Source: Burkholderia multivorans ATCC BAA-247
Lineage (GTDB): Bacteria > Pseudomonadota > Gammaproteobacteria > Burkholderiales > Burkholderiaceae
Assembly (NCBI RefSeq): GCF_000959525.1
Contig: NZ_CP009831.1
Coordinates: 2,170,001 to 2,234,000 of the forward strand
Length of the DNA: 64,000 bases
Reading direction: 5' to 3'
The notes under the pieces are model-generated. The model did not search any database, had not been told where the DNA came from, and was given only the letters and a program-made list of their open reading frames with translations. A program made the position numbers and the translations under genes. This document shows positions 43,361 through 60,315 of the stretch, in pieces (position 1 is the first letter of the stretch; each line of letters opens with the position of its first letter).

Positions 43361-43732
43361 GGCGGGTGGCATTGGGCTGGCGGCTGGCGCCTTGCCTCTC
43401 CTGTCCTGCGTCTCGCGTCCCGTGCCGTAGGTACCGTGCCCCGCGCGTCCCGTGCCTGGCCTTTCGCGCCTCGCCTTTCGCGTCTTGCGTCTTGCGTCTT
43501 GCGTCTTGCGTCTTGCGTCTGGTGGCTCACGGCTCGCGACTCACGGCTTGCGCCTCGCGCCTCGCGGCTCCCCCCGGCGGCTTGCACCTCATGCCGTGCG
43601 TCCCGCATCCCACACCGCGAACGTCACGTATCGCATGCGCAACGCCCCCCGCACGATCGCACCCGGCGCGCGGCAGGGCACGGCGATTGCGCTTATGATG
43701 AGCGCCTTGCATTTCGTTCCGGAACTTTCCCC
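43361..43732. other. Intergenic region with low-complexity repeats before nadE
   Basis: These 372 bases consist largely of degenerate pyrimidine-rich repeats of the CGCGTC / CTCGCG kind around a perfect 7-bp minisatellite. A TATGAT sequence at 43694-43699 is a possible -10 element for nadE. No gene is seen. Confidence 0.55.
43480..43520. repeat. 7-bp minisatellite, GCGTCTT in nearly six copies
   Basis: GCGTCTT is repeated head to tail five full times plus six bases of a sixth copy, without any mismatch. Perfect short tandem repeats of this kind change copy number by slippage. It is about 210 bases before nadE and flanked by degenerate relatives of the unit. Confidence 0.85.
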
Positions 43733-56313: not shown

Positions 56314-56400
56314 GCCGCGCACGGCGGCCGAGACCGCTGTCATCAAACTGACTGAATGGCGACGCTAGGATCGGACGGGACTCCTTCACGAGATGCCGCC

Positions 56401-57990
56401 ATGAACCAGCCTGCTCCGTCCGCCGCCAATCAGGGCTCCGTCGAGCGCACCCGACAGATCGGCTATGCCGCCTTCCTGCTCGTCCTCGTCGGCGGCGGCG
56501 TCTACATCGCGACCCATTTGCTCGCCGATCTCGCGCCGGTTCGGGAGGGCTCGCTGTTCCCGTACCTGATGCTCGGTGCGGCGCTGCTGATCGCGCTCGG
56601 CTTCGAGTTCGTGAACGGCTTTCACGATACGGCGAACGCGGTCGCGACCGTGATCTACACGCACTCGCTGACGCCGAACGTCGCGGTGATCTGGTCCGGC
56701 ATGTGGAACTTCCTCGGTGTGATGGTCTCGAGCGGTGCGGTCGCATTCGGAATCCTGCAGCTGCTGCCGGTCGAACTGATCCTGCAGGTCGGCAGCGGCG
56801 CCGGGTTCGCGATGGTGTTCGCGCTGCTGATCGCGGCGATCGTATGGAATCTCGCGACCTGGTATTTCGGACTCCCATCGTCGAGCTCGCATACGCTGAT
56901 CGGCTCGATCATCGGCGTCGGGCTGATGAACCAGCTGATGCATGGCTCGTCCGGCACGAGCGGCGTCGATTGGGGACAGGCGCTCGGCGTCGGCAAATCG
57001 CTGCTGTTCTCGCCGATCGTCGGCTTTGTCTGCGCGGCGCTGCTGCTGCTTGCGCTGAAGGCCGTCGTGCGGATTCCCGAGCTCTACAGCGAGCCGCAGA
57101 AGGATCAGCCGCCGCCGTTCTGGATCCGCTGCCTGTTGATCCTGACCTGCACCGGCGTGTCGTTCGCGCACGGGTCGAACGACGGGCAAAAGGGCATGGG
57201 GCTGATCATGCTGATTCTGATCGGTACCGTGCCGACTGCGTATGCGCTGAACAAGGCCGTGACGCCGGCCGAGTCGCAGACGTTCGTCGCGGTCGCGAAC
57301 CAGGCCGCCGCGACGCTCGGCAAATATGCGAACGGCGTCGCGCCCTCGGCGAATCCGCGCGCCGATGTCGAGCATTACGTGCAGCATCGCGAACTGACGC
57401 CCGCCGTGATTCCCGCCGTGCAGCAGCTTTCCCGGTCGCTGGCCGGCGCGGTCGGCTCGTCCGGCTCGATGGCGGCCGTCCCGCAGGGCGACGTCGACAA
57501 CGTGCGCAACACGATGTACCTCGTGTCGGAGGCGATCCGGCTGATCGAGAAGTCCGGACAGCCGGCGTTCGCCGCTGACGACAAGCTCGCGATCGACAAC
57601 TACCGCTCGCAACTCGACCACGCGACGAAGTTCATTCCGACCTGGGTGAAGGTCGCGGTCGCGATTGCGCTGGGGCTCGGCACGATGGTCGGCTGGAAGC
57701 GGATCGTCGTGACGGTCGGCGAAAAGATCGGCAAGCAGCGCCTGACGTACGGCCAGGGCGCGTCGGCCGAACTCGTCGCGATGCTGACGATTGGCGCCGC
57801 GGATGCGTACGGGCTCCCGGTCTCGACGACACACGTGCTGTCGTCCGGCGTGGCCGGCACGATGGCCGCGAACGGGTCGGGGCTGCAATGGGGGACGGTT
57901 CGTAGTCTCGTGCTCGCGTGGGCGCTGACGCTGCCGGCGTCGATTGTGCTGGCGGGGGCGCTGTATTGGGTGTTTCGGTCGCTGGCGTGA
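56401..57990 (+). CDS. PiT-family inorganic phosphate transporter
   Basis: This 529-residue permease has the two PiT signature regions: G-F-H-D-T-A-N-A-V-A-T-V-I-Y-T in the N-terminal half and G-S-N-D-G-Q-K-G-M-G-L in the C-terminal half. S-S-H-T-L-I-G-S and S-T-T-H-V-L-S-S-G-V also mark the repeated transport fold. A hydrophilic cytoplasmic loop of about 130 residues separates the two halves. It should import phosphate, probably as metal-phosphate, with protons. ATG 56401 is chosen because the residues before it lack coding character. A 1.6-kb non-coding repeat region follows. Confidence 0.93.
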   Translation: MNQPAPSAANQGSVERTRQIGYAAFLLVLVGGGVYIATHLLADLAPVREGSLFPYLMLGAALLIALGFEFVNGFHDTANAVATVIYTHSLTPNVAVIWSGMWNFLGVMVSSGAVAFGILQLLPVELILQVGSGAGFAMVFALLIAAIVWNLATWYFGLPSSSSHTLIGSIIGVGLMNQLMHGSSGTSGVDWGQALGVGKSLLFSPIVGFVCAALLLLALKAVVRIPELYSEPQKDQPPPFWIRCLLILTCTGVSFAHGSNDGQKGMGLIMLILIGTVPTAYALNKAVTPAESQTFVAVANQAAATLGKYANGVAPSANPRADVEHYVQHRELTPAVIPAVQQLSRSLAGAVGSSGSMAAVPQGDVDNVRNTMYLVSEAIRLIEKSGQPAFAADDKLAIDNYRSQLDHATKFIPTWVKVAVAIALGLGTMVGWKRIVVTVGEKIGKQRLTYGQGASAELVAMLTIGAADAYGLPVSTTHVLSSGVAGTMAANGSGLQWGTVRSLVLAWALTLPASIVLAGALYWVFRSLA

Positions 57991-59571
57991 GGGTAGCGGT
58001 GGTCGGGGCGGGTTTGCCGAGGTCGAGCGCGGCTGTGAGGTGGTGACTGACCGGTTGATCGACGCTGTGCGTGGCGTGATGGCGATCGGGTGGCGGTCGC
58101 GATCGCGTCGCCGCGGGCGATGCCGCTCGCGGTGGCAGGCGCTGGCGATTCACTAACAATGGCGATCGCATCGGCGCCGATGCCCCGTCGGCAGTAGCGA
58201 TCGCGTCGGCACTAGTGATCTGATGGCGATAGCGACCGCGTCGGCACGCCGTCGATCCGGCAGCAATAACGATCGGGGTGGCACCGGCAACCCGCTCGTC
58301 ATGGCGATCGCGTTGGCACTAGCGAGTTGCCAGCGATCACGTCGGCGCCGTGGATTCGCCTACGATGGCGATCGCGCTTCGCACCGGTGGTTCGCCTGAA
58401 CCGCGACCGGGTTGGCACTGGGGAGCCGCCAACGGTGTCGACCGCGTCGGCTGGCATCCGTGCTTTCCTAGCGTTCGCGTTAGCACTGGTGATTCACTAG
58501 CGGCGAAGATCCCGTTGGCACCGGCGACTTCTAGCGGCCTCGATGGCGTTCCACCCACGATTCACTAGCGGCGGCGGTCGCGCTAGCACTGGCGATTCAC
58601 TGGCGGGGACGATTCCGTCGGGACTGGCGACCGCTGGCCACCTCGATCGATCGCACTGACGATTCACTAGCGGTGGCGATCGCGCTGGACACGCGATTCA
58701 CCAGCGGCGACGATCCCACTGGCACTGGCGATTCACTGGCGGGGACGATCCCGTCGGGATTGGCGACCGCTGGCCACCTCGATCGCGTTCGCACCGGCGA
58801 TTCACTAGTGGGACCATCCCACTGGCAGTGGCGATTCACTGGCGGGGACGATCCCGTCGGAACTGGCGACCGCTGGCCACCTCGGTCGCGTTAGCACCGG
58901 CGATGCACTAGCGGCGACCATCCCGCTGGCAGTGGCGATTCACTCGCGGCGATGATCCCACTGGCACTGGCGATTCACTAGCGGGGACGATCCCGTTGGG
59001 ACTGGCGGCCGCTGGCTACCTCGCTCGCGTTCGCACCGGCGATTCACTAGCGGCGACGATCCCGTTGGTACCGGCGACCGCGGGCCACCTCGACCGCGTT
59101 CGCACCGGCGATTCACTGGCGCTGGCGATCGCGTTGGTACTGGCGACTCATTCGCAATGGCGTTGGCACCGTCGCTCCAGTAGCCGCAACGATCGCGTTC
59201 GCAAACTCGAGCCGCCAGCGATGCCGATCGCGTCGACACCGTCGATTCCCGGCGCGGGTGGCCGCCGTCGGGATGGCGGAACAGCCGGCCGGCGATACGT
59301 CGGCCCCACGTCGTCGCCCCGCTCCGCCTTCGTTCCCCACCGAATTGGCGCGCAAGATCCGGCACGCATCGACGCGCGCTCGCCTCTACACTGAAGCCAT
59401 TCATGGGTCATCGCGGAAAGCAGCACGAACGTCGCTGCCCGAATGGCGTTGTCGCGTATCGGGTCGTGCCGACCCCATATCGCCGCGTATCGCAGTGTGC
59501 GCTCCCCGCGAGCCGCGACGCCGACCATCCCGCAACCGCAACGCCGCACCGCTGACGAACGGAGTACGTCT
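57991..59571. other. 1.6-kb non-coding region dominated by degenerate repeats
   Basis: No convincing gene lies between the phosphate transporter and the oxygenase. From 57991 to about 58450 the sequence is a degenerate mixture of GGCGATCGCG-like and GTTGGCACT-like words. A regular array follows, and decayed copies continue to about 59250. The remaining 320 bases to the oxygenase start are ordinary upstream sequence. Frames that cross the array shift at every unit because the unit length is not a multiple of three. Confidence 0.7.
58453..59141. repeat. Head-to-tail array of about 20 units of 34-35 bp in two types
   Basis: Type A units begin GGCGATTCACTAGCGG (or close variants) and start at 58488, 58556, 58591, 58658, 58692, 58727, 58796, 58830, 58899, 58934, 58969, 59038 and 59107. 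Type B units begin GGCGACCGCTGGCCACCTCG (or variants) and start at 58453 (decayed), 58523, 58626, 58762, 58865, 59004 and 59073. Merged, the starts are spaced 32-35 bp, mostly 34 or 35, without a gap. Both types share the leading GGCGA and a tail of the kind GTTGGCACT or GTTCGCACC. There are no unique spacers, so this is not CRISPR. Confidence 0.88.
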
Positions 59572-60315
59572 GTGAACATTGCCGATCTTCCCCGCACGGC
59601 CGAACCCGTCGACGTCGCAAGTCGCGTCGACGCGCTCGACTGGCACCTCATCGACACCGACCTGGACGGCTACGGCTGCGCGCACGTGCCGCGCCTGTTG
59701 TCGCCCGACGAATGCCGCGCGCTCGCGGCGCTCTATCCGGACGACACACGCTATCGGTCACGCGTCGTGATGGCGCGGCACGGATTCGGGCGAGGCGAAT
59801 ACAAGTATTTCGCGTATCCGCTACCGACACTCGTCGATGCGCTGCGCACCGCGCTGTATCGCCATCTCGCGCCGATCGCGAATCGCTGGAATCGTGCGCT
59901 CGGCATCGATACACGCTACCCCGCCGATCTGGCTGCGTTTCTCGCGCGCTGCCACGAGGCGGGACAGACGCGCCCGACACCATTGCTGCTCCAGTACGGT
60001 CCCGGTGACTACAACTGCCTGCATCAGGATCTATACGGCGAGCATGTGTTTCCGCTGCAGGTCGCGATTCTGCTGTCCGCGCCGGAGCGCGATTTTACCG
60101 GCGGCGAATTCGTGTTGACCGAGCAGCGACCGCGGATGCAGTCGCGCACAGAAGTGGTGCCGGTGGCGCAAGGCGATGCGGTGGTTTTCGCCGTGCATAG
60201 CAGGCCGGTGCAAGGCACGCGCGGCATTTATCGCGTGAACCTCCGTCATGGCGTGAGCCGGATCCGCAGCGGGCATCGGCACACGGTCGGCATCATTTTT
60301 CACGACGCGCAGTGA
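59572..60315 (+). CDS. 2OG-Fe(II) oxygenase (COG3826 type)
   Basis: This 247-residue protein matches the 2-oxoglutarate/iron oxygenase group annotated as 'oxygenase, catalysing oxidative methylation of damaged DNA', a tentative name. The iron site H151-x-D153 lies in Y-N-C-L-H-Q-D-L-Y-G-E, with the distal histidine probably H226 in R-H-G-V-S-R. The co-substrate-binding region is near R-H-T-V-G-I-I-F-H-D. Conserved F-T-G-G-E-F-V-L-T-E-Q-R-P-R supports the family. A GTG start at 59572 is supported by CGGAG at good spacing. The real substrate is unknown. It stands alone downstream of the repeat array. Confidence 0.88.
   Translation: MNIADLPRTAEPVDVASRVDALDWHLIDTDLDGYGCAHVPRLLSPDECRALAALYPDDTRYRSRVVMARHGFGRGEYKYFAYPLPTLVDALRTALYRHLAPIANRWNRALGIDTRYPADLAAFLARCHEAGQTRPTPLLLQYGPGDYNCLHQDLYGEHVFPLQVAILLSAPERDFTGGEFVLTEQRPRMQSRTEVVPVAQGDAVVFAVHSRPVQGTRGIYRVNLRHGVSRIRSGHRHTVGIIFHDAQ

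Follow-up and report, generated by a model that had tools for sequence, protein, structure and literature searches.

A tandem array of 34-35-bp units lies between pit, a phosphate permease gene, and an oxygenase gene in Burkholderia multivorans ATCC BAA-247. This array is very probably an ageing, passive intergenic minisatellite with a higher-order structure, and among the genomes searched it occurs only in two B. multivorans strains. The window, that is the whole stretch of DNA analysed, comprises 64,000 nt of an assembly of 6.32 Mb in three contigs. The coordinates of the features are given in Table 1.

Position, units and distribution of the array

The array was recovered by the tandem-repeat finder TRF at 58478-59150 with a period of 35, 19.5 copies and a score of 422, and further TRF rows gave periods of 51, 69, 138 and 139. 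An edit-distance parse from 58453 returned units 32-35 bp long in the order B-A-B-A-A-B-A-A-A-B-A-A-B-A-A-A-B-A-B-A. The results agreed letter for letter with the unit order in a preliminary description of this DNA, and bore out its account of a regular two-type array with a 34-35-bp period. The leading unit (58453-58487) is weak, being 12 edits from B and 14 from A, and we therefore set the core at 19 units. The word GGCGATTCACTAGCGG, allowing up to three mismatches, occurred 14 times in the window, all within 58144-59122, against 1.38 expected from dinucleotide shuffles (n = 100; highest shuffle count 6). The B word occurred six times, five of them inside the array, against 0.00 expected from dinucleotide shuffles. 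Both TRF and the parse showed head-to-tail units within the range of roughly 10-100 bp that is usual for a minisatellite. CRISPR arrays share the regular period, but the units here are contiguous and diverged and the parse contained no unique spacers, so that a CRISPR array was rejected, as the preliminary description had done. Elsewhere in the window, TRF reported a degenerate 7-bp row at 43478-43570, in which GCGTCTT is repeated perfectly 5.9 times (43480-43520).

Table 1. Features of the locus between pit and the oxygenase gene (window coordinates)
Feature	Position	Strand	Basis and remarks
pit, phosphate permease gene	56356..57990	+	ORF; Pfam PHO4, E 6.9e-86; upstream of the array
pit-to-oxygenase spacer, 1581 bp	57991..59571	.	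ORFs on either side; contains the array
Decayed left flank	58081..58487	+	TRF and parse; 18-bp sub-repeats at 58186-58246
Array core	58488..59141	+	19 units of 32-35 bp, ABAABAAABAABAAABABA; TRF, word counts and parse
First three-unit + four-unit module pair (A A B, A A A B)	58556..58795	+	Unit distances
Second three-unit + four-unit module pair (A A B, A A A B)	58796..59037	+	Unit distances
Decayed right flank	59142..59290	+	Self-match 68%, E 5.7e-4; parse against shuffles
Promoter-like block, common to relatives	59341..59393	+	CGAATT..GCGCAAGAT..GG, followed by a word like TAGACTG; delimits the slot on the right
Oxygenase-NA family gene, GTG start	59572..60315	+	Pfam PF09859, E 2.9e-90; start inferred from upstream GGAG

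Decayed copies had also been claimed on both sides of the array, and this was confirmed for each flank taken as a whole. We parsed each flank alongside 25 dinucleotide shuffles. The left flank (57991-58487) had a cost of 176.1, compared with a shuffle mean of 199.9 and a lowest value of 196.0, and the right flank had a cost of 159.2, compared with a mean of 169.8 and a lowest value of 162.1; 0 of 25 shuffles were as good in either flank. The decayed units are 9-15 edits from A or B and are not trustworthy individually; when the entire spacer was shuffled by mononucleotides five times, 17-24 such units were obtained, compared with 38 in the unshuffled spacer.

The genes 5' of pit are metE and a LysR-type regulator gene. 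On the 3' side of the oxygenase gene lies an MFS gene on the opposite strand, followed by the 5S and 23S rRNA genes. The block at 59341-59393 was conserved in an alignment of both B. multivorans strains and eight chosen relatives, and the matches in a BLAST search of the spacer against relatives fell mostly within it. This block may act as a promoter.

The array is single in its own genome and a dispersed repeat family was rejected; genome-wide word matches, with the array included, numbered 46 and 47, compared with 85 and 75 in a backward-read control. No match of array length was found in 64 other genomes of the same genus (eight first-look candidates per genome scored), nor in a family sample of 299 genomes besides the window's own (two first-look candidates per genome scored); the two genome sets overlap. 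Matches of any kind were present in 10 of 65 same-genus genomes, own included, the matches in the nine others being no longer than about 48 bp, and in 16 of 299 family genomes, own included, with 25-52 bp in the 15 others. TRF detected no array at the five outside-match loci that were checked, out of 12 fetched. A horizontal origin was rejected because the outside matches were only about 25-52 bp long. The results answered in the negative the question of whether the unit is fixed beside the phosphate transporter, as its sequence is not fixed next to pit across Burkholderia. No description of this locus was recognised in the titles and abstract beginnings of openly licensed papers, among the matches listed.

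Higher-order structure and divergence between two strains

We compared the units by edit distance, and the results showed that A is a mixture of subtypes. Core units 4, 8, 11 and 15 belong to one A subtype, are 2-3 edits apart, and each lies immediately 5' of a B unit. The best-kept blocks are A-B pairs. The four central pairs differ by 4-10 edits in 67-69 bases, with units 8-9 and units 11-12 only 4 edits apart over 69 bases, while pair 17-18 is 8-12 edits from the central pairs and the first pair is 12-18 edits from all others. Among the periods tried, the ungapped self-match peaked at 69 bp (0.509), and reached 0.461 at 242 bp. These results support the two-unit module of about 69 bp that had been suggested beforehand.

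With the extra A units, the array is organised into three-unit and four-unit modules that alternate as 3-4-3-4. The comparisons made between three-unit modules gave 11, 12 and 19 edits in 102-103 bases (three comparisons), and the two seven-unit blocks were 38 edits apart in 240 bases. The mean distance between units was lowest at lag 7 (7.3 edits, n = 12), followed by 8.5 at lag 4, 9.1 at lag 3 and 10.8 at lag 2, and was 12.0 between adjacent units (lag 1). Multi-monomer blocks are therefore more alike than neighbouring monomers, which is the mark of a higher-order repeat. The lag-7 minimum, together with a TRF row of period 244 and score 812 in strain 2023CK-01339, had suggested the seven-unit block as the last duplication; this was dropped, as the A-B pairs and three-unit modules are closer to one another. 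The TRF listing of the window contained no row of 242-244 bp. A shorter sub-period was also seen, the self-match being 0.375 at 17 bp, compared with 0.287 at 16, 0.313 at 18 and 0.219 at 19. From this pattern, growth of the array looks like stepwise block duplication. In alpha satellite higher-order repeats, diverged monomers are amplified jointly as multi-monomer blocks. The array shares this joint amplification, but it is tiny (0.65 kb), bacterial and without a known centromere-like role.

An array with nearly the same unit order was found at the same locus in strain 2023CK-01339 (NZ_CP143551.1), in a strain search whose set may lack records very near the window's genome. The pit and oxygenase proteins of the two strains are 99.6% and 98.0% identical, respectively, and DNA divergence is 2.2-2.7% in four genes. 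The core of 2023CK-01339 reads ABAABAAABAABAAABAA (18 units), compared with 19 units in the window, so that unit number, about which the preliminary description had asked, does differ within the species as in a VNTR, two strains being a weak test of this. The length differences consist of 34 bp near the right end of the core and 35 bp in the decayed left flank, and the spacer total of 1581 bp is the same in both strains by chance.

Since the order is nearly identical in the second strain, the unit order predates the divergence of the strains. Between the strains, units in corresponding places differed by a mean of 3.4 edits (16 pairs), and units of the same type at other places by 7.6 (182 pairs). 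The same-place partner was the best match of the window unit in 7 of 16 pairs and was within one edit of it in 14 of 16. The unit order has been stable since the strains split, with limited exchange between units being possible. Hypervariability of the array is not seen between these strains, the only two comparable, which hardly sample copy-number change in the population.

We then compared substitution levels. The core differed at 57 of 616 positions (9.3%) and the rest of the spacer at 72 of 921 (7.8%; left flank 38/491, right flank 34/430), and third codon positions of pit, the oxygenase gene and the MFS gene differed at 83 of 1268 (6.5%; 38/545, 16/248 and 29/475, respectively). The core was slightly faster than third positions (Fisher p = 0.039) and did not differ from the rest of the spacer (p = 0.35). 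Because the strains have diverged here no more slowly than at silent sites, there is no visible constraint on the sequence.

The strain comparison also bears on coding. A coding reading was considered, as the length of a unit pair, 69 bp, is divisible by three and the array is spanned by ORFs of 80-154 aa. It was rejected because A-A neighbours shift the frame, because indels that separate the strains have lengths not divisible by three (6/6 in the core; 11/12 in the spacer), because the ORFs of the other strain differ, and because the three spacer ORFs tested all returned 0 Pfam families. The claim that the array is non-coding was thus upheld.

Recurrent tandem repeats in the corresponding spacer of relatives

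The oxygenase gene was matched in 62 of 65 genomes, own included, and upstream stretches were obtained from 57 of the 61 others. Five stretches without a usable pit match were dropped, leaving 52 relatives with spacers of 168-863 bp, whose ends are approximate where the oxygenase match began late; one pit match (L081) was partial. The results showed that in 26 of 52 relatives TRF detects an array with units of 5-8 bp in this spacer at a score of at least 40, two more rows of 21 and 13 bp with about two copies each being excluded from this count, and in 19 of 52 at a score of at least 60. The array starts 42-77 bp after pit in 24 of the 26, and an octamer, mostly pyrimidine-rich, is the main unit in 24 of the 26. 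These repeats are unrelated in sequence to the B. multivorans units. In B. arboris (NZ_CP101525.1; L191 2030-2306), a GC-rich hexamer array of 26.7 copies adjoins an octamer array of 13.5 copies, and the corresponding spacer of B. cenocepacia holds an octamer in 4.9 copies, the place of the arrays in both species being judged from match coordinates.

Perfect runs of at least three units of 5-9 bp numbered 16 in 7,376 spacer bases (11/20 genomes) and 13 in 785,965 bases outside the spacer (about 40 kb upstream in the 20 genomes). This is a 131-fold higher density in the spacer, relative to mostly coding DNA; a smaller excess would be expected against intergenic DNA alone. An additional control of 20 hand-spaced 20-kb stretches from four genomes contained 3 perfect runs in 400,000 bases.

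Several further observations were made around this locus. A second recurrent repeat place, with rows of 14, 42 and 22 bp, is located some 11.9 kb upstream of where pit ends in 3 of 20 genomes (G039, G041 and G002). Four draft contigs (G013:C130, G005:C68, G019:C39 and G057:C630) stop within about 525 bp upstream of the oxygenase gene, possibly where the spacer repeats broke the assembly. At G022:C2:2956012-2956717, two overlapping matches to the oxygenase gene lie in different frames, so that the gene looks frameshifted. Words like those of the block at 59341-59393 can be read by eye in the short spacers of distant relatives (e.g. L106), and the arms of a strong hairpin after pit seem, by eye, to change compensatorily between species (e.g. 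L070 and L091).

We next scored two marks after pit: the fold of the first 65 nt, expressed as z against 100 mononucleotide shuffles, and C/G in a 120-nt stretch starting 45 nt after pit. Where the spacer measured 286 bp or more (39 relatives), z was <= -2 in 31 and C/G was > 1.3 in 33. Rho prefers an unstructured tract with C in excess of G, and the hairpin and C-rich tract of these relatives may perhaps be a terminator. A wider reading takes the whole slot between pit and the oxygenase gene as a transcription terminator or insulator, in which the hairpin and the C-rich, G-poor octamer tract would, together with Rho, terminate the pit transcript and protect the resulting RNA end; in B. multivorans the array would have taken the place of this device and may serve the same purpose by other means. 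Against this reading, none of the 13 relatives with shorter spacers reached the z threshold and only 4 of 13 had C/G > 1.3 (37/52 overall), and the two B. multivorans strains carry neither mark (z -0.3 and 0.0; C/G 0.60 and 0.58). No terminator-like site was found in 57900-59700, which is hardly informative, as shuffles give 0.6. A promoter scan also found nothing, where shuffles give almost nothing as well (0.2). Rho-dependent termination by the array itself was rejected, as C/G is 0.60 in the stretch after pit and close to 1 throughout the array. We consider the terminator or insulator reading unlikely. Because the post-pit marks lie on the left and the common block on the right, the array fills the interval that a hairpin and octamers hold in many relatives.

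Proposed origin, other roles and meaning

The passive minisatellite would have arisen in several steps. A sequence with a 17-bp sub-period would have given the 34-35-bp unit, which would then have diverged into B and several A subtypes. The pattern suggests that these multiplied as A-B pairs and as three- and four-unit modules, by replication slippage or unequal crossing-over. The array sits in the slot that runs from the pit stop to the conserved block 5' of the oxygenase gene, a slot which gathers unrelated tandem repeats in many Burkholderia species. At present the array would change chiefly through point mutations, units being gained or lost only rarely, and it shows no sign of selection on its sequence. 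The preliminary description had offered three roles. The passive minisatellite fits best in view of the strain divergence, while a structured RNA gained weak support at most and a protein-binding array none. A function that depends on length or composition, such as spacing or insulation, would leave the same trace as passivity.

A further possibility is that the spacer is a functional slot, a device for ending transcripts or an insulator, which Burkholderia species repeatedly rebuild from any tandem repeat arising there, selection keeping its position and repetitiveness and not its sequence. We regard this as quite improbable. If it were true, the slot would be built of octamers in most species, of heptamers or pentamers in some, and of a 34-35-bp higher-order minisatellite in B. 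multivorans.

A structured non-coding RNA of repeated hairpins, in which CTAGCGG and CCGTTGG of each A unit would form the two arms of a stem closing an 8-nt loop, is very unlikely. In 25 A units, 89.1% of 175 cells were paired, compared with 87.1% in shuffles (16/500 as high), and covariation over the seven pairs was 0.254, compared with 0.208 in shuffles (5/500 reached it). Versions with the partner slid were far lower, but this control favours the stem, which was itself derived from these sequences. The + strand folded with z -2.24 (1/20 shuffles as good), whereas the - strand reached only -1.12, and RNAalifold of the unit alignment gave only -0.65 kcal/mol. Stem pair 14-27 is broken in 6 of 25 units and pair 16-25 in 7 of 25, the array has no Rfam match, and strain divergence at or above the silent rate also argues against a structured RNA.

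A protein-binding array, for example a set of operators for the oxygenase promoter or a cluster of iterons like that of an origin, would suit the regular 34-35-bp spacing upstream of the conserved block, but it is hardly credible, as no array-length match was found in the 64 same-genus genomes although the downstream block is common to the eight aligned relatives, the sequence shows no constraint between strains, and no replication initiator gene adjoins the array, its neighbours being pit and the oxygenase gene, nor is there a replication gene among the five neighbours tested (metE, the LysR-type regulator gene, pit, the oxygenase gene and the MFS gene).

As a passive minisatellite, the array is a known kind of element, and the recurrent repeat slot is the curious part. 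In a study of B. pseudomallei (PMC1853098), tandem repeats are likewise mostly intergenic, abundant in Burkholderia and subject to whole-unit change. The VNTRs there are mostly 6-9-bp motifs in 4-10 units, whereas the array described here has 34-35-bp units, about 19 of them, in a higher-order arrangement. The array thus offers a tidy bacterial case of higher-order repeat growth followed by ageing. The presence of unrelated repeats in one orthologous spacer, in 26 of 52 relatives, provides a concrete place in which local mutation mechanics can be tested against selection for an end-of-gene element.
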